From NCBI GenBank assembly GCA_007134845.1, contig SLKA01000030.1:1-64000 (forward strand): a stretch of 64,000 bases of DNA, in the 5' to 3' direction. This DNA is from Balneolales bacterium (GTDB lineage: Bacteria; Bacteroidota; Rhodothermia; Balneolales; Natronogracilivirgulaceae). Position numbers and translations under genes: made by a program. The notes beneath the pieces are model-generated. The model was not told the DNA's origin and did not search any database. It was given only the letters and a program-made list of their open reading frames with translations. Positions 8,808 through 63,636 of the stretch are shown piece after piece (position 1 is the stretch's first letter; the number at the start of each line of letters is the position of its first letter).

Positions 8808-10160
8808 TCAGTATTTTAGTTGTTCGATCAGTGATTTCAGTTTGTTGTCCAAGCTGACATCATAACGTTGTGGATGCGATAACCGTTTGATGTGATCTGG
8901 AAGCTGCGCGAAGCGAGACGCACTGAATGTTGCAATTTTTTTTACATCCGTCTGGTGATCGAGGATACGGCCGGATTTCATGACTTCGGTGCGGATCTGC
9001 TCAGTATGGACGCCGGATGGCGGATGGTCCGCAAGCCGGATGATATCCCGGAGAAAAGAGACGTCCGCATCGGTTTCGCGGTCAATCTCCTTTATTCCAG
9101 GCAGGCTTCGCTTGGATGACTCATCGGTGTATTTCATACTGGGACGACCGTCCAGGCTGCATATTTTATAGACGCCGCCGAGGGCGCCGTCAGGGTGTCC
9201 GGTAATAAGCCTGGTGCCAATGCCGAAGAAGTCTATGGGTGCATTTTTTTCTTTCAGATCCGCGATTCGGTTTTCGTCAAGCTGATCCGAGACGATGATG
9301 GAGACATAGTCGAGTCCGGCCTCATCGAGCATGGCTCGCGCCTTTCGTGAAAGTGTGAGCGGATTCCCGCTGTCGAGACGAATGCCGGCCAGCCGGTGCC
9401 CGGCATCCTCAAGCTCGCGTGCCACAGTAATGGCATGGGGCAATCCGGAGCCGACAGTATCGTAGGTGTCCACCAAAAGGATAGTGGTGTCGGGATACAT
9501 GCGGGCGTAGGTACGGAAAGCCTCCAGCTCATTGTCAAAGCATTGAATCCAGGAATGGGCCATGGTGCCGGAAACGGGCAGATTGTATCGGCGTCCTGCC
9601 AGGACATTGGAAGTTGCGTCGATTCCTCCGACAGCAGCGGCACGCGAAGCAGCAATTGATCCGGAAGCATGTCCACGGCGCAGTCCGAATTCCACCAGTT
9701 TGCAGTCGCCGGCGGCAAGACGAATACGCCGGGCCTTAGTGGCGATGAGGGACTGGAAATTGAGTAAGTTCAATACCAGGGTTTCCACCAGCTGGCACGA
9801 AAGGAGGGACCCGGATACGGTGAGAATCGGTTCGCCCGGAAATACGACGTCACCTTCTCTTGCGGAGATGATGCTGCCGTCAAAACGGTAGCCGGCAAGA
9901 AAATCACAGAACTCCGCTTCAAAACCATTCTGCCTGAGCCATTCCCGTTCATCGTCGGTGAATCGATAGGATTCCAGCACGGAAAGCAGGTCAGCAAGTC
10001 CGGCAAACACCACATATTCACCGGAAAATGGGGCTTTACGGAAAAAAAAGTCAAAATGAGCGGTTTTTTGATGGTAGCCGGATTTAAAATACCCCTGGCC
10101 CATCGTCAGCTGGTACAGGTCCGTATAAAGAGCGGGATTCGGAATTTCTGCTATGCTCAT
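8808..10160 (-). CDS. pncB: Nicotinate phosphoribosyltransferase PncB
   Basis: Makes nicotinate mononucleotide from nicotinate, PRPP and ATP, the step after PncA. The N-terminus YTDLYQLTMGQGYF, the central EFGLRRGHASGSIAASRAA and SGTMAHSW (with the conserved His) and the phosphate-site region GIRLDSGNPLTLSRKAR are hallmark NAPRTase segments. 450 aa, full length. The ATG at 10160 was chosen because the family starts just before YTDLYQLTMGQ. It is divergent from the gene starting at 10353, leaving a 192-bp shared promoter region. Confidence 0.96.
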   Translation of the reverse strand: MSIAEIPNPALYTDLYQLTMGQGYFKSGYHQKTAHFDFFFRKAPFSGEYVVFAGLADLLSVLESYRFTDDEREWLRQNGFEAEFCDFLAGYRFDGSIISAREGDVVFPGEPILTVSGSLLSCQLVETLVLNLLNFQSLIATKARRIRLAAGDCKLVEFGLRRGHASGSIAASRAAAVGGIDATSNVLAGRRYNLPVSGTMAHSWIQCFDNELEAFRTYARMYPDTTILLVDTYDTVGSGLPHAITVARELEDAGHRLAGIRLDSGNPLTLSRKARAMLDEAGLDYVSIIVSDQLDENRIADLKEKNAPIDFFGIGTRLITGHPDGALGGVYKICSLDGRPSMKYTDESSKRSLPGIKEIDRETDADVSFLRDIIRLADHPPSGVHTEQIRTEVMKSGRILDHQTDVKKIATFSASRFAQLPDHIKRLSHPQRYDVSLDNKLKSLIEQLKY

Positions 10161-51910: not shown

Positions 51911-54088
51911 TTATTTGGAGGTGGCGTGCTGATGCAAATCGGCTTCCAGATTGTGGCACAAGGTATAAAACTCGTGAGCCAGCGCCAGGAGTTCCGCTGA
52001 GAGTTCTTCATTCGCTTCCATCAGGATTACATCTTCCATCCGGTCGTGTATGTCCAGCCACTTGTCATTAACCTCACCGGTTCGCACGAACAGATTTTCA
52101 AACTGCCAGATTGTCTGGGCATGAGTGAACGGATCAACCAGCCGGGAATAGAGCGGAACATGTGCAGCATCCGACATTGCCTTGTATGATTCAAGAATCG
52201 CCACCGTGTAATCCTTGTGGATGTGGAGAGCTTCGGCCTGTTGCAGCGAAGACTCGGCATCTTCGAATGTGGGAACCTTTTCTTCGACGGTTGTACCGGC
52301 ACATTCACCCTTCACACCTGTCATGATGTCGAATTGTTCTTCTTCATGGCCCCAGTCTCTGTAGAAACCAGGATCTTCTTCGAAGGAGGGAACATGAGTG
52401 TACTCCTGCAACTGTTCGTTGAGGTACTGTTTCCCGAGGCGCTTCATCAAAAAGTCAAAGTGTTCGCCGTTTTTCCGCTCCTTTTCATAGATTTGAAGCA
52501 GTTTTTCAACCACTTTGGGAGCATTTCTCGTTGGTACTTTGATGACGGATTCGGCCAGGCGCGTTTCATCACCGGCGAGCGATCCGCCAACGAAAACCAT
52601 TTCCGAGGGCACCCGTCGTCCGTCTTTGGAGGTAGCCGCACCCTGAAAACCAATATTGGCAGTTGCATGCTGGGCGCATGCATTGGGACAGCCTGAGATT
52701 TTGATCTTCAGGTCGCGTGCCAAATCGGCGTATTGACCCAGTCCGTTGCTGAAACTCTGTTCGAGCGCCGTTGCCAGTCCCTTGGCCGAGGTAATTCCGA
52801 GCCGGCAGGTATCGGCACCGGGGCATGCGGTGATATCGGTCACGGTTTCGGCCCCTGAATCACCGAGGCCGGATTCACGCAATGCGATATACAGCGATGG
52901 CAGAATGTTCAACGGCACCCAGCGCATAACAAGATTCTGGTGGATGGTGATGCGTACGTTGCCACCTGTGTAGATCTCCGAGATATCCGCGATTTTTCGT
53001 GCCTCGTCAGAGGAGATATCACCATTATGGATTTTGAGCTGTACAAGCGCATGGTCCCCGGATTTTTGTGTTGTAACAGCCGATCCCTTCCAGAGCAGAT
53101 ACCCGGGGTCATTCTCGATGCCATCCGGCGCCGGCGGTATTTCCGACACGTCAGTCACAGGTGCATCCATGCGTTGATGAGCATCCTCGAGGTAATCATT
53201 CCAGGAGGGGTCTTCCCTGAGTGCCTTGCGCTCTTCTTCGACGAGGCGCCGAAACTCATCCACCCCCAGTTTTTTGATCAAAAACTTCATCCTTGCTTTC
53301 ATCCGGCTTTTGCGTTCGCCGTATCGATCGAAAATCCGGACAACTGCCGCCGAGAAGGGAATCAACTCCTCTTCGGGAAGAAAGTCTGACCAGAGGTGTC
53401 CCAGCATCGGAGAGGAACCGAGGCCGCCCCCAACATATACCTGAAAACCGCGTTTCGGTTTCCCATCCACTTCCAGGATCTGTGCGCGAAACCCGAGGTC
53501 GTGAATACGAAGGCCGGCATCATCCTTGATCGCATTGCTCTCAAAAGCGACCTTGAATTTGCGTCCCATGTTTTGGCAGATCGGGTTGCGAAGCATGAAA
53601 TTCACAAATGCGTCTGCATACGGCGAGACATCAAACACATCATCGGGCGAGGTGCCGGAAAACGGTGTGGCGGTGACATTGCGGATGGTGTTCCCGCAAG
53701 CTTCGCGTGTAGTGATGCCGGCATCGGCCAGCTCGCGCATCATATTGGGCACCGACTCCAGCATGATGAAGTAGAGCTGAACATCCTGCCGGGTGGTCAG
53801 GTGCATGAAATTGTTGGCATACTTATCCGAGACGTCAGCCAGCCGGCGCAATTTGGCGGGCGTCAGATCGCCATAGGGAATTTTGATTCGCTGCATCTGG
53901 ACTCCGGGCTGACGCTGGGCATAGGTTCCGAGCTGCAGACGAATTTTCTGCATCTTGATATCACCGATCTTGCCGCGACGATAGTCCCGGATTTTCTGCT
54001 CGTATTCATCAAGTTCTTCGCGTACAACGTCTGGGAGATTATTCAACAACGTTTCTGGCAATGGTTGCAATCTGCTGTCTTTTGACAT
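51911..54088 (-). CDS. Siroheme nitrite/sulfite reductase with C-terminal helical extension
   Basis: Two-fold nitrite/sulfite reductase ferredoxin-like domains and siroheme domains. The [4Fe-4S]/siroheme ligands are in TACPGADTCRLG and ISGCPNACAQH (C-x5-C and C-x3-C). Reduces nitrite or sulfite with six electrons in the cytosol. ATG 54088 has AAGGA five bases upstream; an upstream TTG lies 15 bp further. About 725 aa: the last 150 residues form an extra helical domain (YTVAILESYKAMSDAAHVPL, ELLALAHEFYTLCHNLEADL) like a HEPN-type bundle. Nitrite versus sulfite cannot be settled by eye. Confidence 0.9.
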   Translation of the reverse strand: MSKDSRLQPLPETLLNNLPDVVREELDEYEQKIRDYRRGKIGDIKMQKIRLQLGTYAQRQPGVQMQRIKIPYGDLTPAKLRRLADVSDKYANNFMHLTTRQDVQLYFIMLESVPNMMRELADAGITTREACGNTIRNVTATPFSGTSPDDVFDVSPYADAFVNFMLRNPICQNMGRKFKVAFESNAIKDDAGLRIHDLGFRAQILEVDGKPKRGFQVYVGGGLGSSPMLGHLWSDFLPEEELIPFSAAVVRIFDRYGERKSRMKARMKFLIKKLGVDEFRRLVEEERKALREDPSWNDYLEDAHQRMDAPVTDVSEIPPAPDGIENDPGYLLWKGSAVTTQKSGDHALVQLKIHNGDISSDEARKIADISEIYTGGNVRITIHQNLVMRWVPLNILPSLYIALRESGLGDSGAETVTDITACPGADTCRLGITSAKGLATALEQSFSNGLGQYADLARDLKIKISGCPNACAQHATANIGFQGAATSKDGRRVPSEMVFVGGSLAGDETRLAESVIKVPTRNAPKVVEKLLQIYEKERKNGEHFDFLMKRLGKQYLNEQLQEYTHVPSFEEDPGFYRDWGHEEEQFDIMTGVKGECAGTTVEEKVPTFEDAESSLQQAEALHIHKDYTVAILESYKAMSDAAHVPLYSRLVDPFTHAQTIWQFENLFVRTGEVNDKWLDIHDRMEDVILMEANEELSAELLALAHEFYTLCHNLEADLHQHATSK

Positions 54089-54487
54089 AATTCCTTGTTT
54101 CAAATATCATCTGAACTCGCCGGGCTTGCGAGTGCAGTTACAGTTTATGTTTTTCTACAGTCCTGACCTCGTTTACTGTCCTTTAAACGCAGGTTGCTTG
54201 TCTTTCTACATGTTTATCCAATATAATAACTTATGGATAGAATTCCACCCCGTCGATATTCACACAAGCATCGGTGCGTCAGCCGGCACATGTGGTGCAG
54301 TTTCCAACATTTCTTTTTGTGGAACATCGCTGTGCTGATTGCATCGCTGAGTTGATCGCATCACCGTGCAAATATCAATGCAATGTGCATATCCGTCCGG
54401 TTTTTTTAGCTTTTTTCAGACATTTTTTTGTAACATGCATGGGTATCAATTGAGGGTATCCCCAATCATAAATCAAAGGACCGGATT
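54089..54487. other. Intergenic region with a 17-bp tandem duplication
   Basis: About 400 bp without a gene. It is T-rich and holds two 17-bp units at 54329-54345 and 54346-54362 (GCTG-G-TGAT-GCATC type), with about four differences. No riboswitch pattern was found. Confidence 0.6.
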
Positions 54488-54658
54488 ATGGAATCAATCG
54501 TTGGCATTATTGCACTCATTTGTGCCGTATGGGTTATTTATGATGTATGGGCCGTTCAAAAAAGCATGACTGCCGGAAAAAAGGTACTGTGGACCATTTT
54601 TGCCCTGCTCCTCAGCATACTGACGGCCATGGTCTACTACTTCGTCCAGAAGAAGTAG
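54488..54658 (+). CDS. Small PLDc_N-like membrane protein (56 aa)
   Basis: Starts with ATG at 54488 preceded by AAAGGA. The product MESIVGIIALICAVWVIYDV then a short basic loop (KSMTAGKKVLWTIFALLLS) and a second helix to VYYFVQKK is the two-helix pattern of phospholipase-D-nuclease N-terminal domain proteins. These occur alone as small inner-membrane proteins in many Bacteroidota. Function unknown. Confidence 0.8.
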   Translation: MESIVGIIALICAVWVIYDVWAVQKSMTAGKKVLWTIFALLLSILTAMVYYFVQKK

Positions 54659-54797
54659 ACATCCATGCATATTTGTCAGTGATCACCCGGTGATTGATTT
54701 CATCAGGGGATCGGTATTTTTCAAGTCGTTCTCTCACTTGATGCCATGCCGTCTTTGTGTGATTCCATACCGTTTTCATGCCACCTTCATTTCGCCT

Positions 54798-56456
54798 CTA
54801 TGCCGTTTCTATGCCGGCGTCTTCGTGCAGGTTGAAGGTCTCAATACCCTGCTCACGCAGCTTGTATTTCTGGATCTTGCCGCTCGCCGTGGTCGGGAAG
54901 GAGGTGACAAATCGCACGTATTTTGGTTTTTTATGCCTGGCCATATTGGCTTTCACAAACTCCTGCACCTCTTCCTCGGTCAACTTCATTCCATCCCGCA
55001 AAATAATGAAGGCGCAAATCTCCTCACCGTATTCTTTGCTTGGAAGCCCGATCACCTGGACATCGGAAACGGCCGGATGCGTGTAGAGAAATTCTTCTAT
55101 CTCCTTTGGATAGATATTCTCACCACCCCGGATGATCATATCCTTGATTCTGCCGACGATCTTGTAGTAGCCGTCCTCATCAACCACCGCCAGATCACCG
55201 GTGTGCAGCCATCCATCCTTGTCAATGGCTTCTTCGGTGGCTTCGGGCATCTTGTAGTAGCCTTTCATGATGTTATAACCTCTGGCGCAAAATTCTCCCG
55301 GCTCGTTGGGACCCAGCTCCTTATCCGTCGAGGGATCAACGATTTTGGCCTCAATTCCCGGGAGCACCCGTCCAACGGTTTCGACCCGGTGCCTGATGCT
55401 GTCGTCGACCGTGGTTTGTGTGCAAACGGGTGATGCTTCCGTCAGTCCGTATGCGATGGTGATGTCCTCCGCACCCATGTCATTGACCACCTGCTTCATC
55501 ACCTTGACCGGACAGGGCGAGCCGGCCATGATCCCGGTTCTCAGATAAAACCGGTAATTTTTGAATTCCGGATGTTCGAGCACGGCAATGAACATGGTCG
55601 GGACACCGTGAAGTGCCGTACATTTTTCATTCTGGCATGCGTCCATCACATCCTGTGGACGGAAATAGGGCAGCACCACCATGGATGTGGCATGCGTCAG
55701 GCAGGCCATCACACCCAGCACCAGTCCGAAGCAGTGGAACAGCGGTACTGCGAGGCACAGCCTGTCCTCATGGGTGAATTTCATGCAGTCGCCCACCGCC
55801 TTGCCATTGTTGAGGATGTTGAAATGAGTAAGCATCACACCCTTTGGGAATCCCGTGGTGCCCGACGTGTATTGCATGTTGATGATATCATGACAATCCA
55901 GACGGTCCTGCACGGCCTGGAACTCCTCGTCGCTGATCTGCTCGCCCAGTTTCACGAGTCTGTCGAACGCGAGCATTCCCTTCGGGGTGTTCTCCCCGGC
56001 GTGGATGATGCGCTCCAGAAACGGAAACCGATCCGTTTTGATGCTGCCATCCTGCGATTCCCGGATCTCCGGACACAATCTGGTGATGATATCGGCATAG
56101 TTGCTGTCCTTGAACTCGCTGATCAATACCAGCGCCCGGGCATCGGACTGCTTCAGCAAGTACTCAATCTCAAAACTTTTGTAATTGGTGTTTACCGTGA
56201 CCAGGATGACGCCGATTTTTGCAGTCGCAAACAGTGTAAGCAACCATTCCGGCACATTGGTCGCCCAGATGGCGAGATGGTCTCCCTTCTTCAGTCCCAG
56301 GGACAGGAGCCCCCTGGCGATCCGGTCCGTTTCCTCGTCGAACTCGGCCCAAGTCCGCTCGTAGGGCATGGTGGTATACTTGACGGCTTGAACATCAGGG
56401 TATTTGCGGGCGACCTGTCTCAGTACCGACCCAACGGTTTCATTGATCTCTTTCAT
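54798..56456 (-). CDS. Fatty-acyl-CoA synthetase (AMP-binding family)
   Basis: The P-loop-like motif MQYTSGTTGFPKGVMLTH (about 200-217) and AYGLTEASPVCTQ are adenylate-forming hallmarks, with the C-terminal DGYYKIVGRIKDMIIRGGENIYPKEIE and lysine-containing TASGKIQKYKLRE. 552 aa. The sequence fits the medium/long-chain acyl-CoA ligases (FadD/FACL type). It activates a fatty acid to its CoA ester with ATP. Cytosolic. No other beta-oxidation genes lie adjacent. Confidence 0.92.
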   Translation of the reverse strand: MKEINETVGSVLRQVARKYPDVQAVKYTTMPYERTWAEFDEETDRIARGLLSLGLKKGDHLAIWATNVPEWLLTLFATAKIGVILVTVNTNYKSFEIEYLLKQSDARALVLISEFKDSNYADIITRLCPEIRESQDGSIKTDRFPFLERIIHAGENTPKGMLAFDRLVKLGEQISDEEFQAVQDRLDCHDIINMQYTSGTTGFPKGVMLTHFNILNNGKAVGDCMKFTHEDRLCLAVPLFHCFGLVLGVMACLTHATSMVVLPYFRPQDVMDACQNEKCTALHGVPTMFIAVLEHPEFKNYRFYLRTGIMAGSPCPVKVMKQVVNDMGAEDITIAYGLTEASPVCTQTTVDDSIRHRVETVGRVLPGIEAKIVDPSTDKELGPNEPGEFCARGYNIMKGYYKMPEATEEAIDKDGWLHTGDLAVVDEDGYYKIVGRIKDMIIRGGENIYPKEIEEFLYTHPAVSDVQVIGLPSKEYGEEICAFIILRDGMKLTEEEVQEFVKANMARHKKPKYVRFVTSFPTTASGKIQKYKLREQGIETFNLHEDAGIETA

Positions 56457-56612
56457 CCCGGCCTCTCCTTTGCAATGGTAAATAAATGTCTGATACAGGA
56501 TAATACTTTTCCCAAAAATATTCCCGAAAAGATGCAGGAAGTGAACTTGTCAGCTTCAATAGTTCAAGGGTTCACGCCAGTTCAATGCTGCAAGTCCCGG
56601 ATTCAATTTTTA

Positions 56613-58208
56613 TCACCACTTCATAATCAGACGTCCGAATCCGCCGTCGAAGTAAGAGCGTTTGTGGATTCTGTTGTCGAAGGTGCCTCCGTACATGTCG
56701 CCGTCGATATCGTAGGATGCGCCCATGATCAGGTAGGTCCGGTCATTGAACCGGTATCCGAACAGCAGCGTGATGCGCTCGTTTCTGTTGTCGAGCTGGA
56801 AGGGATAGGTGCGCCGGTAGTCAAAAGCATAGATGGTTCCGACATCGTCGGCCACAAGTGGCTCTCCTAAAAAATCACGGTAATCGGCACTCCACTCCAG
56901 TCCGCCGATCATTCCCCGGGATTCGGGCATATAGAGGATGCGGTTTTTCATCATGGTCCGGTTCTCCCGGAAATCGAACGGGTAGGTCTGGAAATCACGC
57001 CAGAACTCCTCCCGGTGCTCATCGAATTGACGGTCACGCACGCGTGCGAACCAGATCCAGTTGTGGAATTGGATGCGGCCACGCTCCAACCCCAAAAAAC
57101 CACCGATGCGATTCTGAAACTGCATGTTGCCGTAATCGATCGGCTCCTCATAATTGTCGGTGAAATTTTCGCGCCAGAACCGGGCGTAATGGTACTGCCA
57201 GTTGATGCTGGTGGTGACCATGCCGCCGGACCATTCCACGAGCGCCCCGGCATAGCGGGCATGCTGACGGTCACGGGTATTGTCGTCGATCCGGCTCTGT
57301 AGTCCGACCTGGGCGTTGGACCGGGTCAGTATGCCGCCCATGGCCTCGCCGCGGAATCCATTCCACTCGGGCGATGCCGCTTTGAACGAAAAGAGAAATG
57401 GAGAGCGGTGGTACTTGCGGCTCTCCTCGAAATCGCGGTCGCGGCTTTCGCTCAGGGCGTAAATGGCGTTATTGCCAAAATCCAGGGCGCTGGCCTCAAG
57501 CTGTATCATCCCGGAAGCAAGGGAGCCGTAGCGGTAGAACAGTGTGAAATCCAGGTCCGACTTCTGTTCGGTCAGGGTCTGCCGGATGCCGATGGTCTGG
57601 TTATCCTTAAGGCGGTAGTCAAACCCGAGCCAGAGCAGGGCGCGGTCGGCCCTCATGTCATAGCGTCGCAGGATGCGGATATTCATGGACAGACGGTCGG
57701 TCAGCTCCCGGCGGTTGCGCAACTCGAAACTGGTCAGGAATTTACCCAGATCCATGCTGCCGGTATAGGCGCGAAAACCGTCATCATCCGAATAGTGCCA
57801 GTTGTAATGGTCGAGTGAGGTATACTCGTAGGTGACCAGGTCCAGGTCGTGCTCCTTGGTCATGTCGTGTGTGGTATACCGGAACAACCCGCGGTCGTAG
57901 AAGAGTCCGCCGAAGTTGTGTGACTGGTCGAGGATCATCAGTTTGGTCCATTCCTCCCAGCCGAATAGGGTGTTTCGCATCTGGGCGGATGCGGTAATTG
58001 CCGGAAGAAACGCCCCGGCCGCAGTCAGGAAAAGCAACACCAGGACGGGAACGATGGGTCTCGAAATGCGGCATGAAGGCACAAATTTGGCATCCGGCAG
58101 TTCCTGGTGGATGCGGTTCCGGTCCGATGGGGCGTCGCGGCCATCCTGTCGGTACTGCGGCACTGCAATATGTGATAGTGAAATATGTGATGGTGATCTT
58201 CTGGACAC
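56613..58208 (-). CDS. Probable outer-membrane beta-barrel protein
   Basis: The frame begins at a GTG (58208), gives a 55-residue polar N-region, then a hydrophobic leader (VPVLVLLFLTAAGAFLPAITASAQ). The unusual N-region is coded partly by a 15-bp tandem repeat, so the true start may be a GTG nearer the leader. The mature part has many alternating strands with Arg and aromatics (NWHYSDDDGFRAYTGSMDL, TSFELRNRRELTDRLSM) and ends DGGFGRLIMKW, aromatic like barrel C-termini. 531 aa in the long form. No family is recognised. Confidence 0.65.
   Translation of the reverse strand: MSRRSPSHISLSHIAVPQYRQDGRDAPSDRNRIHQELPDAKFVPSCRISRPIVPVLVLLFLTAAGAFLPAITASAQMRNTLFGWEEWTKLMILDQSHNFGGLFYDRGLFRYTTHDMTKEHDLDLVTYEYTSLDHYNWHYSDDDGFRAYTGSMDLGKFLTSFELRNRRELTDRLSMNIRILRRYDMRADRALLWLGFDYRLKDNQTIGIRQTLTEQKSDLDFTLFYRYGSLASGMIQLEASALDFGNNAIYALSESRDRDFEESRKYHRSPFLFSFKAASPEWNGFRGEAMGGILTRSNAQVGLQSRIDDNTRDRQHARYAGALVEWSGGMVTTSINWQYHYARFWRENFTDNYEEPIDYGNMQFQNRIGGFLGLERGRIQFHNWIWFARVRDRQFDEHREEFWRDFQTYPFDFRENRTMMKNRILYMPESRGMIGGLEWSADYRDFLGEPLVADDVGTIYAFDYRRTYPFQLDNRNERITLLFGYRFNDRTYLIMGASYDIDGDMYGGTFDNRIHKRSYFDGGFGRLIMKW
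58167..58196 (-). repeat. 15-bp tandem duplication at the 5' end of the barrel gene
   Basis: AATATGTGATAGTGA (58167-58181) and AATATGTGATGGTGA (58182-58196) differ by one base. On the reverse strand they code S-P/L-S-H-I twice. Confidence 0.9.
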
Positions 58209-58369: not shown

Positions 58370-58789
58370 TCAATTCTCCCTTATCTGGCCCGGCTCCCGG
58401 ACGCGGATCTGCGGGGTGCCCCGGTGCTCGCTGATGGTCCCGGTGACGCAGATGCGGCGGGTGAGGTAGCGCTCTTCGGGCGTCGCCGGCCAACGGCCGC
58501 GGTCCTCGCCCCAGATCACGGCGGTAAACGGCTGGTCGGGGTGGGGGCGGCCCAGGTTCAGGAAAGTCGGCTCGCCGCGGATGGCGGGAATGTAGTCGGC
58601 CGATTCCACGATGCCGCACACCACGGCCCGTTCGCCGATGTGCGCGGATGCGTCGAATGCCGTAATCCGCAAATCCGGTTCGGCTTCGCGGGACTCCGGC
58701 TGGTACACACGCGACAGGATCAGCCCGGCCACCATGAGGACGGCGAGGACCGGCATCAGCCGCAAAATCCATTTCCGGAAGTGTTTCAT
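58370..58789 (-). CDS. Membrane-anchored OB-fold protein
   Basis: One N-terminal helix (residues 8-26) is followed by a single OB-fold: HIGERAVVCGIVESADYI, PTFLNLGRPHPDQPFTAVIWG, YLTRRICVTGTISEHRGTPQIRV. This tRNA_anti-like pattern occurs in exported Bacteroidota proteins (YgiW-like). 139 aa. Starts one base after the stop of the TIM-barrel lipoprotein gene, so the two are coupled. It may bind a small ligand or nucleic acid in the periplasm; no function is known. Confidence 0.75.
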   Translation of the reverse strand: MKHFRKWILRLMPVLAVLMVAGLILSRVYQPESREAEPDLRITAFDASAHIGERAVVCGIVESADYIPAIRGEPTFLNLGRPHPDQPFTAVIWGEDRGRWPATPEERYLTRRICVTGTISEHRGTPQIRVREPGQIREN

Positions 58790-58790
58790 C

Positions 58791-59672
58791 TTATTTCAGT
58801 TCATCCACTATATTCTGCAAACCATCCAGGTTTCGCAGCAGCACATCGCGGACATCCTCACCTTCCGTATGCCCGATAATCCCGATGGTGCCGGAGAACC
58901 CGGAATCCAACAGGGTCTTTATCATTTGCTTTTCGTAATCACCCTTGCCGATATCCACAATATGCGCCCCGTCCTTTTCCATGCCGTTAAGGTTGACCGT
59001 TTCCAGCCATGGCATCATGATTTCCAGGGCTTCCCCGAAGCGGTCGGTCTGGTCGTGGCCGTGATGGAAATTGAAAACGATCCCGATGTCGTCGTATTTT
59101 GATGCGCGGATGATCCGGACCTGGTTTTCGGGGATACCGGCCCATCCGCCATGATTGTAAAGTGCGACGGTACTGCCGGACTCACGGGCCCTTTCATGGA
59201 CCCGGTCAACGATACCCGCCACTTTTGCCACTTTCTGCGCGTCCTCAAGCCCGGCATAGACATTTTCATGCAGACCGATCCAGATACTTGTGGACACACC
59301 CGCATCCTCCAGCACGTCGAAAATCCGGTTATGCTCCGGCAGCAGGCCGCCCGACGCCCGGTCATCGATCCACAGCCAGACGGACGTCAGTTCGATATCG
59401 AATTTCTGTAGTGTGCGGATCTCATCGGGAAAATCCGGGAGGTGCCGCTCCCTCCAGTCATAGCCCATTTTGGTGAAACCGAGCTCGTGAAGCATGCCGG
59501 CCCGTTGCAGCGGGGTCCTATCCTGGTTGTCATGCGGGATGATGCACCAGGCAACGAGGTTATCCATGGCGAAGAGCCGGTTTTTGTCACTTGTGGGTGG
59601 GGGATCCGAAGCGCATGCGGCGAGAATCATGACAAAGGACAGCAAGGTGATCAGCATCAGAAGGGAAATCAT
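58791..59672 (-). CDS. TIM-barrel sugar isomerase/epimerase-like lipoprotein
   Basis: A lipoprotein signal (LAACAS, Cys20) precedes an AP-endonuclease-2/xylose-isomerase-like barrel: GFTKMGYDWRERHLPDFPDE, IWIGLHENVY, VALYNHGGWAGIPENQVRII, VFNFHHGHDQTDRFGEALE and GTIGIIGHTEGED. 293 aa. Metal-binding His and Glu residues are visible. It likely acts on a sugar or cyclitol in the envelope. In one run with an OB-fold protein and the YqiA-like esterase. Confidence 0.82.
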   Translation of the reverse strand: MISLLMLITLLSFVMILAACASDPPPTSDKNRLFAMDNLVAWCIIPHDNQDRTPLQRAGMLHELGFTKMGYDWRERHLPDFPDEIRTLQKFDIELTSVWLWIDDRASGGLLPEHNRIFDVLEDAGVSTSIWIGLHENVYAGLEDAQKVAKVAGIVDRVHERARESGSTVALYNHGGWAGIPENQVRIIRASKYDDIGIVFNFHHGHDQTDRFGEALEIMMPWLETVNLNGMEKDGAHIVDIGKGDYEKQMIKTLLDSGFSGTIGIIGHTEGEDVRDVLLRNLDGLQNIVDELK

Positions 59673-59716: not shown

Positions 59717-60580
59717 TTAACGTGGTGGGTGTTGATCTGATGGGGATTGGTCTGATGGGGATTGGCCTGATGGGTGTTGCTGTGAAGGGAAAGGCCGGGA
59801 AAGAAATTGCCGGATATGGGGCAGCGCCTCATCCATGTGCTCAAAACGGTGCGATCCGCCATCAAAGATGACGACCTTGTATCGATGTTCCGGTTTGCCG
59901 TGGGTGCGACCGGTGGTTTCGTGCGGATGCTGGAAATCAGGATTTCCGCGCTCTGAATCCGGGCGCTCTGTATCAAGACGCGCGGCATCCGGGGTCTGGA
60001 TGCTTTCCCCGCCGGATCCGAACCACTCTGCGGCCCGGCGATAGTCCAGCACCTCATCGCCTTTGTCCAGCAGCACCAGGAAATCACCCGACTGCTCGAT
60101 GTCACCGTACGACGCAGGCACCTCATCCCGCAGGATGTTTCTTGTGCGCGTGACGAAATTGAGCAGTTTGTGTCCCACATAGCGTTGCAGGCTCCGGTGT
60201 GGGTGGATGGTGGGGTTGATCAGCACGGCGGGGATCCCGAAATGGTTTCCGAAGCGTGCTGCCCAGAAGCCGCCAAGCGATGTGCCAACAAGTACGGCAT
60301 TACTGACCACAACATCCCCGGTGCCGGCGCGGCTATCACCTGTATCAGTGTCGAATCCGATCCCGCTTCCGGTGCCGGTGTTTTCCCCAATTCTTTTACC
60401 CGTTCCGTGCGTCCTCAGAATTTCACACAACTGCTTTTCCATGACCGGAAACACCTCATCATGTTTCATGAATGAATCGTAAGTGACACCGGTGACCTTT
60501 CCGATCTTTTTCAGCGCTGCGATTTTGTACCCATTCGGATCGTACCCCGAGTTGAATCCATGTATGTAAATGCTGATCAT
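59717..60580 (-). CDS. YqiA/YcfP-like alpha/beta hydrolase with low-complexity insertions
   Basis: MISIYIHGFNSGYDPNGYK at the start, the nucleophile elbow GTSLGGFWAARFG, and the conserved HRFEHMDEALPHIRQFL near the end mark the UPF0227/YqiA esterase family. The family is about 190 residues; here 287. Extra segments are Gly/Thr/Asp-rich (RIGENTGTGSGIGFDTDTG, residues about 61-83), a Pro/Arg/Glu-rich stretch after about 183, and a tail PSGQSPSDQSPSDQHPP coded by 15-bp repeats. The first 122 bp overlap out of frame the end of the CheR-CapA gene. Confidence 0.85.
   Translation of the reverse strand: MISIYIHGFNSGYDPNGYKIAALKKIGKVTGVTYDSFMKHDEVFPVMEKQLCEILRTHGTGKRIGENTGTGSGIGFDTDTGDSRAGTGDVVVSNAVLVGTSLGGFWAARFGNHFGIPAVLINPTIHPHRSLQRYVGHKLLNFVTRTRNILRDEVPASYGDIEQSGDFLVLLDKGDEVLDYRRAAEWFGSGGESIQTPDAARLDTERPDSERGNPDFQHPHETTGRTHGKPEHRYKVVIFDGGSHRFEHMDEALPHIRQFLSRPFPSQQHPSGQSPSDQSPSDQHPPR
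59719..59778 (-). repeat. Four 15-bp tandem repeats at the 3' end of the esterase gene
   Basis: Units at 59719-59733, 59734-59748, 59749-59763 and 59764-59778 follow G-(T/C)CTGATGGGGATT with changes. They encode the QSPSD-type tail; the stop codon is inside the first unit. Confidence 0.9.
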
Positions 60581-62663
60581 TATTTAAAATTTCTACCAGT
60601 TTCGCTACTTCATCCTCAGAGGGGTAACATAACGAGAAGCGATGAATTTTCATGGGTGCTATTTCAAGGGAAACCAGGGCGCCCGCTGCATCAATCCGGG
60701 GAAAATACATCAGCGAGAGATCGTCAAGATAGTCTTCGTATCCGCCGATGCCTTCATAGTCGTTGATCAGATCCCCGCAACCGTACAAGATGAGCCGGCC
60801 TTCATAGATCTCGATCCGTTTGGGATGATGGGAGGAATGGCCATATATGATGTCGGCGGTACCGGCATCCACGAGGCTGTGGGCAAATGTGCGCTGCTCG
60901 GATGGGATGTCATATCCCCAGTTGCCACCCCAGTGAATGGATATCACCACCCGGTCACCCGGTTTTCGATGAGAGCGGACATCGCGGATGACTTTGCTGA
61001 TGCTCGCCGTGCCCGGACCGTTCAGCACGTTGATTCCCGGTGTGCCTTCAGCTGCTTTCCAGGAAAGGGGAGCGCCGGAGCAGGTCGAAGCATACGAGAA
61101 TATCAGCAAGCGGCCGCTTTGGGTCTCCCTGATCACAGGAAGCGCGGCAGATTTTGCATCCGGGCCGGCTCCGGAAACAGACACCTTGTGCTTCTGGTCG
61201 GAGCGATTGGTTTGAGAGGGCCGAAGGGTTTTGGAGGATCGAAGGGATCGAATAGAACGAATAGTCTCCTCCAGTCCCGGCCGTCCCCAGTCCATGGCAT
61301 GATTATTGGCCAGTATGCAGACATCGATGCCGGCGGTGTCAAGCAATGCGGTGTTGTCAGGATGCATGCGATAATGAATTCCTTTTTCCGGCCAGGGTTC
61401 ATGCCATGTGGTGGCCGCCGTCTCCAGGTTGATGAGGTTGACATCTGGGTCGATTTCTTTCAGCTCTGTGAGTGCATCGCCCCAAAGCTGCTCGAATGTG
61501 AGGGGATGGGGTATCGGTCCGGATCGGCGCTCGGCCAGCCTCACGTATTGCTCTGCGCTTTTGACATATGGTTCATAAAGGACAGGGTCCACAGAGCGCG
61601 GCAGGCGCTGGTCAACGCCTCGTCCGGTCATCACATCGCCGGCCAGAAAAAGCGTAAGGTCCCTGTTCTTTCGAGGTTTGGATTGCCGGGATGCGGGTTG
61701 TTCAGATGCAGTTTCAGATCTTTTCCGATAGACGGGGTGCGTCTTTGAGACAGGCTCGAACCGCCCGGTATCCGGAATTGTTTCATTGGCTCCGGCGACC
61801 AGAAAGCCATCGGCGGCCAAGCGGGAAACAAGCTCATCCAGAAACTCCTGCTGCCTGTCTTTGGTGAAGTACGTAAAAGCCAGGTTCCTGCAGAAAATAA
61901 GATCAAATGGTCCGTCAGGAAGCGACTTTCTTATATCTCGCTGCTCAAAATGAACCAGATCCCGGAGTTCCGAACGGATGCGATACAGGACAGGATCGTC
62001 CTGATTGTAAGTGGAATTGCCGTGTGAAGTGTCAGTGATATTCACGTCGCCCCAACCGTTCGGGGCATTATCCACCTTGACAAACCACCGTTCCCGTTCC
62101 GCCGGCTTTAGTTCTTTCAATGCGCCGGCTTCATAAATCCCGGCACGGGCGCGCTGTAGTACCATGTCATTGCGATCTGAGGCCAGAATCGGCTTATGGA
62201 GTTGAATCCGTGTGGCAGAGTTACCCTTGATGTTGATCAATCCGAGTTCGGCCAAAGTAATTGCTGCACTGTAGGCTTCCTCGCCATTGCAGCTGCCGGC
62301 CGACCATATCCGGCGCTCCATTCGCATCCTGCTGTTTTCATCGGCTGCGCCGGCTTTATCATCCACCCATTTCCGAAACACCTCTTCCCTCAAAAAATCC
62401 CAAAGCTTCCGGTCCCGAAAAAAGCGGCTGATGGTCACATCACAAAGCGCATCCAACGTCTGCCATTCGGATGGATTTTGCTCCAGATAAGTTGCGTAAT
62501 CCGCGAAACCGGATAATCCGAGCGCACCCATCCGGTTTTTGATGCGCCTGAGGATCTGCCTGCGCGGCTTGCGAAAACCCGGCCATCGATATCCGAGGCG
62601 GGGCAATGCCCACTGAAGAAAAGTAACCGGGTCATCAGTGCGGTTCGGAAGGTTGTGATCCAT
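60459..62663 (-). CDS. CheR methyltransferase fused to CapA-type metallophosphatase
   Basis: Residues 1-310 are CheR: an all-alpha N-domain (VTISRFFRDRKLWDFLREEV) and the SAM domain with SAGSCNGEEAYSAAI (121-135), ILASDRNDMVLQRARAGIYE and FDLIFCRNLAFTYF. A polar linker (SETASEQPASRQSKPRKNRD) leads to a complete CapA/PGA_cap metallophosphatase at about 335-690: LFLAGDVMTGRGVDQRLP, NLETAATT, ILANNHAMDWG, SIHWGGNWGYD and GHSSHHPKRIEIYEGRLILY. A loop after ETIRSIRSLRSS is repetitive. No signal peptide, so the CapA part should be cytosolic unless otherwise exported. 734 aa. The tail overlaps the next gene by 122 bp. Confidence 0.88.
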   Translation of the reverse strand: MDHNLPNRTDDPVTFLQWALPRLGYRWPGFRKPRRQILRRIKNRMGALGLSGFADYATYLEQNPSEWQTLDALCDVTISRFFRDRKLWDFLREEVFRKWVDDKAGAADENSRMRMERRIWSAGSCNGEEAYSAAITLAELGLINIKGNSATRIQLHKPILASDRNDMVLQRARAGIYEAGALKELKPAERERWFVKVDNAPNGWGDVNITDTSHGNSTYNQDDPVLYRIRSELRDLVHFEQRDIRKSLPDGPFDLIFCRNLAFTYFTKDRQQEFLDELVSRLAADGFLVAGANETIPDTGRFEPVSKTHPVYRKRSETASEQPASRQSKPRKNRDLTLFLAGDVMTGRGVDQRLPRSVDPVLYEPYVKSAEQYVRLAERRSGPIPHPLTFEQLWGDALTELKEIDPDVNLINLETAATTWHEPWPEKGIHYRMHPDNTALLDTAGIDVCILANNHAMDWGRPGLEETIRSIRSLRSSKTLRPSQTNRSDQKHKVSVSGAGPDAKSAALPVIRETQSGRLLIFSYASTCSGAPLSWKAAEGTPGINVLNGPGTASISKVIRDVRSHRKPGDRVVISIHWGGNWGYDIPSEQRTFAHSLVDAGTADIIYGHSSHHPKRIEIYEGRLILYGCGDLINDYEGIGGYEDYLDDLSLMYFPRIDAAGALVSLEIAPMKIHRFSLCYPSEDEVAKLVEILNNDQHLHTWIQLGVRSEWVQNRSAEKDRKGHRCHLRFIHET

Positions 62664-62985
62664 TTCCGGGTGAATTTATTTCGCTGGAAAAATCGAATCT
62701 GGCTGATTCCAGAGCCAGTAAAAGCAATATAACATGGATTTTGAAGGAATGAATTATCAGGAGCAAGCCGCAACAACATTAAGAAAGTTTAACGGCATTA
62801 ATACTAATAATTTATTAGTATGGAAATAGTTAAAGCATATACTCGCAATACCGGAAGTCAAAATGCGCATGCGATGTACAGTATAATTCAGAAAACTGAT
62901 ATCAATTGTTATCAAGTGCTTCAGCGTGTCAGGAGTATCTTGTTCGGCAAATTATGAACACGAACATGTTAAAAAAGTTGTAGAG
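62664..62985. other. Divergent intergenic region with palindrome
   Basis: About 320 bp between the reverse CheR-CapA gene and the forward lipoprotein gene. It holds a perfect palindrome at 62801-62821 and a short CTGGCT/AGCCAG hairpin near 62700. No gene is seen. Confidence 0.65.
62801..62821. promoter_or_regulatory. Perfect 10-bp-arm palindrome, likely operator
   Basis: ATACTAATAA (62801-62810) and TTATTAGTAT (62812-62821) are exact reverse complements around a single T. Its position between divergent genes (starts at 62663 and 62986) fits a regulator that controls one or both. Confidence 0.5.
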
Positions 62986-63636
62986 ATGAAAAAAACAAAT
63001 TACTGCAGAAATTTTTCACTGGTTCTGGCCCTGGCCATGGTATTCACCGCAAGTTGTGATGTTAATAACAGCTCCAAGTTGTCCTTTGGGGACAGGAGTG
63101 ATGTGGTTCCCTACCTGAACCCGATTGATGGTGCCGATAACGTAACCGTTAGGGTGAAAAGAAATAACGATGTCAGTTATTTCGATATTAACCTGTCGCA
63201 AATCGAGTCCAGAGCAGGCATTGCAAACGGAAAGTATTACGGCTGGTGTGCAAACTGGAATGCCCCGATTGATATGGATCGGGATTATGAAGGTATCACA
63301 CTCTATTCATCCCGGGACGACAAGAACTGGAAAAAGATGAATTACTTTCTGAACAACAGGGAGCACTACTCCATGACGATTGAGGGGGCCGGCTACAAGG
63401 AGATGCAATCCGTAGTCTGGGCATTGATTGATTTCAATGAATTTGACGTCGAAAGAGATGGTATTCTGGAGGATGTCAACAAGGAAGCTTACCATGCCAT
63501 GCTGAGTGACGTGCGTGAAAACGCTGACACTTTCGAGCAAACGGATACGACCATACGCGCTGTGCTGGCAGATATGTCAATACATAAGACCGATGGCAAA
63601 AGTACACAGACGGTTATTGTAGAAGTAACGAATTAA
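62986..63636 (+). CDS. Small lipoprotein of unknown function
   Basis: ATG 62986 gives a standard lipoprotein leader (MKKTNYCRNFSLVLALAMVF, lipobox TASC with Cys24). An upstream extension of 20 residues is not needed. The mature part of about 190 residues is hydrophilic with no recognised motif: GDRSDVVPYLNPIDGADNVTV, GWCANWNAPIDMDRDYEGIT. Its sequence pattern hints at a surface-exposed beta-fold. A second lipoprotein gene follows in the same direction at 63885. Confidence 0.8.
   Translation: MKKTNYCRNFSLVLALAMVFTASCDVNNSSKLSFGDRSDVVPYLNPIDGADNVTVRVKRNNDVSYFDINLSQIESRAGIANGKYYGWCANWNAPIDMDRDYEGITLYSSRDDKNWKKMNYFLNNREHYSMTIEGAGYKEMQSVVWALIDFNEFDVERDGILEDVNKEAYHAMLSDVRENADTFEQTDTTIRAVLADMSIHKTDGKSTQTVIVEVTN

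Follow-up and report, generated by a model that had tools for sequence, protein, structure and literature searches.

What does a CheR-type methyltransferase do in a bacterium in which no chemoreceptor is found, and how did it come to be joined in one polypeptide to a CapA-type protein? The question is raised by a gene of a salt-lake Balneolales bacterium, located in a stretch of 64,000 nucleotides (contig SLKA01000030.1, positions 1 to 64,000) that is referred to here as the window. The genome to which the window belongs (G000) is a fragmented MAG of about 81% completeness, and the fused gene is present in it as a single copy, on contig C59. The CheR-CapA fusion is genuine and a rare domain combination; its product, as we infer for both its enzymatic activity and its location, is most likely a cytoplasmic two-enzyme protein.

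The fused gene and its surroundings

The fused gene runs on the minus strand from an ATG start at 62663 to a stop at 60459, an uninterrupted frame of 734 codons, and its product matches three Pfam families above their curated cut-offs, namely CheR_N (5e-7), CheR (1.6e-34), and PGA_cap (2.9e-66). A preliminary description of this DNA had placed CheR and CapA in one frame, joined by a polar linker; Pfam agrees with it and all the motifs that it quoted were found, and its open reading frame at 60459-62663 has the right coordinates, to which the minus strand, missing from that description, is to be added. The genes and domains of the locus are as follows.

58370..58789, minus strand: 139-aa protein of unknown family, last gene of a conserved run (conserved in L023 and L116)
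58791..59672, minus strand: putative lipoprotein with a xylose-isomerase-like TIM barrel (weak Pfam match, below cut-off)
59717..60580, minus strand: YqiA/UPF0227-like alpha/beta hydrolase, downstream of the fused gene (Pfam UPF0227, 6e-24)
60459..62663, minus strand: fused CheR-CapA gene, 734 aa (single open frame; Pfam CheR_N, CheR, PGA_cap)
60459..61673, minus strand: CapA / PGA_cap domain, residues ~331-734 (Pfam, motif alignment, Foldseek)
61674..61715, minus strand: linker, residues ~317-330, ETASEQPASRQSKP (DNA comparison with L022/L023)
61716..62633, minus strand: CheR methyltransferase domain, residues ~11-316 (Pfam, PDB, AlphaFold, Foldseek)
62926..63636, plus strand: divergent gene of the c6 family, putative lipoprotein, which marks the syntenic position in genus members

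The linker, which joins a complete CheR domain to a complete CapA domain, consists of about 14 residues and is polar, its KP pair corresponding to the KP that follows the start methionine of stand-alone CapA (MKPESEL...) in members of the genus. At its 3' end, the fused gene is overlapped by the 5' end of the yqiA-like gene for 122 bp (60459-60580), out of frame, and one genus member (L023) keeps the same gene order with a similar yqiA overlap. Within the overlap, the yqiA codons show no synonymous change relative to two loci of a sister MAG (L021 and L116). On the divergent side, the c6 family has two tandem copies in L021 (5807-7745) and no Pfam match; by eye, its Cys ... NYFLNN ... Q..VWALID arrangement is suggestive of thioester-type adhesin domains.

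A canonical CheR fold in a solitary subfamily

The N-terminal half scores 119.5 bits against PF01739 (cut-off 27) and contains the SAM motif WSAGSCNGEEAYS together with counterparts of the catalytic residues, Arg83 (in FFRD) and Tyr265 (in FCRNLAFTYF). It matches the PDB structures of CheR, 1af7 and 1bc5, with R83 and Y265 aligned to R98 and Y235, the residues named as catalytic in CheR by S. typhimurium numbering (PMC3447774), and both are invariant in an alignment of 17 members of its subfamily. A full-length AlphaFold model of the fusion had a poor CheR half, probably from a mixed alignment. The model of the CheR half has a mean pLDDT of 84.8, and its top Foldseek match is 1bc5 (Salmonella CheR, TM 0.74 by target, 30% identity). 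Fold, SAM motif, and catalytic Arg and Tyr are common to the window's protein and S. typhimurium CheR (1af7/1bc5; PF01739/PF03705), whereas the window's subfamily is distinguished by one extra residue in the CRNLxFTYF motif and by an N-terminal WALPxLxxRWxGFRK, which are its signatures, the window's protein carries an insert of about 24 residues in a beta-subdomain loop, and its genome has no detectable MCP or CheB.

The CheR half is a member of a distinct solitary subfamily, which is split from generic CheR in the tree with 99/97 support and within which it groups with solitary CheRs of Balneolota. Among the matches listed from plasmid records, identity to the CheR half is at most about 36%. 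CheR joined to another domain in one chain is also seen in CheR-TPR (WspC), and such fusions sit in chemosensory clusters with response regulators (PMC3447774); in the window, by contrast, CheR is joined to an enzyme of metallophosphoesterase fold, and chemosensory genes were not found. A separate member of the same subfamily (L062, 7659-9194) has an extra, unannotated C-terminal stretch, about 235 aa long and with a cluster of four cysteines at its end; read by eye as an endonuclease-III-type Fe-S end, this extension is backed in that reading by neither Pfam nor PDB.

A leaderless CapA domain

The C-terminal half scores 224 bits against PF09587 (PGA_cap, 'poly-gamma-glutamate synthesis protein'), above the cut-off, and has all the motifs of the family, GDVM (342), NLET (412), NNHAMD (453), IHWGG (576), and GHSSHHP (608), which are invariant or nearly so across 18 aligned sequences. 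It differs from the family in having no leader, membrane anchor, or CapC and in the addition of the N-terminal CheR. With 45-66% identity to stand-alone CapA proteins, it groups in the tree with the genus's own CapA. Among the matches listed from plasmid records, identity to stand-alone CapA is 38-49%, and these records yielded no fused match covering >80% of the query. A weak second PGA_cap match lies on another contig of the window's genome.

The closest solved structure, by sequence and by fold, is the lasso-peptide epimerase MslH (8gq9; PMC10406935), which is the best Foldseek match (8gqb) and is followed by calcineurin-like phosphatases. Counterparts of MslH residues D11, E44, N87, H88, D91, and H295 appear to be present, but two of the four Ca ligands of MslH, His259 and His261 in the sequence HSH, align with HWG in the window, and the CapA half falls far below the MslH NCBIfam cut-off (42 vs 700 bits). 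An MslH-type epimerase is unlikely, since the metal ligand His261 is replaced by Gly.

By a simple hydrophobicity rule, about one third of the CapA homologues examined have no leader, and the rest have Tat- or Sec-like N-termini. The CapA of the window's genus is leaderless, whereas many distant relatives carry Tat- or Sec-like leaders, so that in this genus a cytoplasmic CheR could have been joined to CapA without blocking export.

Birth and decay of the fusion

Comparison of fused and separate arrangements in related genomes, as the preliminary description had proposed, shows that three other MAGs of the genus (L022-L024) have a free-standing CapA flanked by the genes that surround the fused one. 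The start of CapA reads MKPESELTLFLAGDVM in L022/L023 and SKPRKNRDLTLFLAGDVM in the window; the join lies at the former CapA start, where ATG AAA CCT has become TCC AAA CCT, the AAA CCT being kept and the ATG replaced by TCC. The join falls at this position, and the window's CheR half stops at about the same point as stand-alone CheR relatives, so two whole genes were joined head to tail. The best explanation of these comparisons is a recent, lineage-specific fusion, a single-lineage event in which a complete gene of the solitary, non-chemotaxis CheR subfamily would have lost its stop and its frame would have joined the start codon of the leaderless, cytoplasmic CapA at CapA's usual place in the genus.

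The fusion is limited to a single species, and the sister's copy is broken. The 129 genomes of the order yielded no further fusion, the window's being the only intact copy, and a scan of one genome per species across 84,980 species, which relies on short exact peptide patterns, gave no intact fusion in the best 80 relatives. Full-text literature searches for CheR with CapA/PGA_cap returned nothing relevant and no description of the same architecture. Across the 129 genomes, genes of the CheR and CapA subfamilies usually occur in different genomes; leaving aside the fusion and its remnant, both are present in G818 alone, where they lie on separate contigs.

The sister MAG (L021, G004:C54) has the same locus with the same fused gene, broken by three deletions whose missing segments correspond to about 62658-62375, 62333-61797, and 61658-61520 of the window. 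Each deletion lies at a short microhomology (about 5-9 bp), and together they take out most of CheR and the GDVM motif. They are probably real, as assemblers with longer k-mers would hardly make such joins, and with its copy dead the fused protein is evidently dispensable in the sister. On another contig of the same bin (L116, G004:C101), only the last part of CapA is present (95.5% nucleotide identity) and most of yqiA is absent. There, at 9661-9895, yqiA has lost most of its length and the TIM-barrel gene a part, and the whole small operon seems to be eroding along with the fused gene.

Divergence at synonymous sites is uneven around the locus, with dS of 0.08-0.17 across the fused gene, 0.2-0.3 in the immediate neighbours, and 0.75-1.09 further downstream; along window positions 51911-58208 compared with L116, dS increases sharply with distance from the fused gene, from 0.2 to 1.1. 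Such a gradient is what a recombination tract would give, and it suggests that the DNA around the locus has recombined recently. For the CapA half, copies compared with one another give a dN/dS of 0.06-0.28.

Absence of chemotaxis and capsule partners

No match to MCP (PF00015) was found in the window's genome (about 81% complete) or in its 90%-complete sister (G004), and at the same completeness the window's genome yielded neither CheB nor any CheR other than the fused one. CapC was found neither in that genome nor in 12 relatives. The preliminary description had noted that there are no chemotaxis or capsule genes around; this is true of the neighbours, and for MCP, CheB, and CapC it extends to the whole available genome. 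With no MCP, CheB, CapC, or second CheR, neither chemotaxis nor poly-gamma-glutamate is supported, and the absence of CapC from G000 and the 12 relatives argues against membership in a CapBCA/PgsBCA poly-gamma-glutamate synthase. Members of the CapA subfamily occur in many phyla, with no capsule gene recurring next to CapA.

Separate homologues in gammaproteobacterial gene islands

In a sample of 369 genomes of the Gammaproteobacteria (the class of G425), scored with at most two candidates per genome, the CapA subfamily is present in 8 of the 13 genomes positive for the CheR subfamily and in 24 of the 356 others (p ~1e-6 by a Fisher test that ignores phylogeny). The distance between the two genes is about 1 kb in L062 and L063, 11 kb in G428, and 19 kb in G429, and in G448, G740, and G714 they are far apart. 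The CapA of L063 carries a Tat-like leader, which would put CheR and CapA in separate compartments there and weakens the argument from neighbourhood.

When 16 CheR and 77 CapA loci, gammaproteobacterial and similar, were examined for common neighbour families, PRPP synthase, phosphoribosyltransferase, a dienelactone-hydrolase-like protein, PEBP, RtcB, and a ribosome-hibernation factor recurred at both, with archease beside CapA. Counted by tblastn, any island gene is present at only 17 of 56 well-covered CapA loci, and none was found near Balneolota CheR loci or in the window. The shared islands hint at stress or repair work. In unrelated bacteria (L113, L118, L119, L125), an island of PRPP synthase, phosphoribosyltransferase, dienelactone-hydrolase-like, kinase-like, RtcB, and archease genes is recurrent, and a literature search for the island genes together found no paper describing such an island.

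Possible functions of the fused protein

The reading preferred here, in which confidence is about evenly balanced, is that of a lineage-specific fusion with two live enzymes in one chain. The N-terminal half would move a methyl group from S-adenosylmethionine to a carboxyl group of a non-MCP substrate, and the C-terminal half would be a metal-dependent enzyme of calcineurin-like fold, performing phosphoester hydrolysis or a related reaction. More weakly, since gammaproteobacterial gene islands repeatedly contain unfused homologues of the two halves together, both may take part in one stress- or repair-related process. It is doubtful that the fusion exposes a true functional link between the solitary CheR subfamily and the CapA subfamily, in the form of an undescribed pathway of carboxyl methylation and metal-dependent hydrolysis that would lie outside chemotaxis and capsule synthesis and belong to the stress or RNA/nucleotide-repair islands in which PRPP synthase, phosphoribosyltransferase, RtcB, and archease occur.

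Close behind the two-enzyme reading, and tentatively held, ranks an accidental, uncoupled fusion, in which a CheR gene landed upstream of CapA and lost its stop, the halves being independent, whether acting or not, and the fused gene transient. The single intact copy in the order's 129 genomes, the destruction of CheR and the GDVM motif by three deletions in the sister, the rarity with which CapA and CheR genes occur together in the order, and the recombination of the region, with its low dS in the fused gene and high dS further downstream, all agree with such an accident. Both catalytic motif sets are nonetheless intact in the window's copy, the dN/dS of the CapA half is in the range given above, and the two families co-occur in Gammaproteobacteria.

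A catalytically intact CheR kept where no chemoreceptor is detectable suggests a role outside chemotaxis for part of the CheR family, and the fusion names a candidate partner enzyme and offers one protein in which to seek the CheR substrate. Even without coupling, a newly formed fusion has been caught between birth and decay in sister populations. The fusion is a new domain combination, to be taken as an oddity and as a pointer to a methyltransferase family outside chemotaxis, with functional coupling as a candidate only.

Glutamate side chains are what CheR enzymes esterify, and the partner domain bears the Pfam name PGA_cap; the nearest solved relative, MslH, moreover acts on a peptide C-terminus. 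These points favour the proposal of the preliminary description, in which poly-gamma-glutamate or some other glutamyl polymer or peptide on which the CapA half works would be methylated at a carboxyl by the CheR half. This is nevertheless very unlikely, given the absence of CapC from G000 and 12 relatives, the HWG that replaces the HSH of MslH, the lack of an export signal on CapA of the genus, though many distant relatives have one, and the confinement of the fusion to a single lineage in whose sister it has already decayed. The recurring neighbours of CapA likewise comprise PRPP synthase, phosphoribosyltransferase, dienelactone-hydrolase-like, RtcB, and archease genes and no capsule genes.

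A role in chemotaxis-type signalling, with chemoreceptors as the methylated substrate and CapA as an unusual output, would suit the canonical CheR fold and catalytic residues but is highly improbable in a genome with neither MCP nor CheB and with a 90%-complete sister that also has no MCP. Least credible of all is an assembly or frameshift artefact, which the fragmented state of the MAG might suggest; the frame is continuous with no stop inside, and a second, separately assembled MAG contains the stretch that runs from CheR residue 292 through the linker, with 95% nucleotide identity to the window, making an assembly chimera unlikely.
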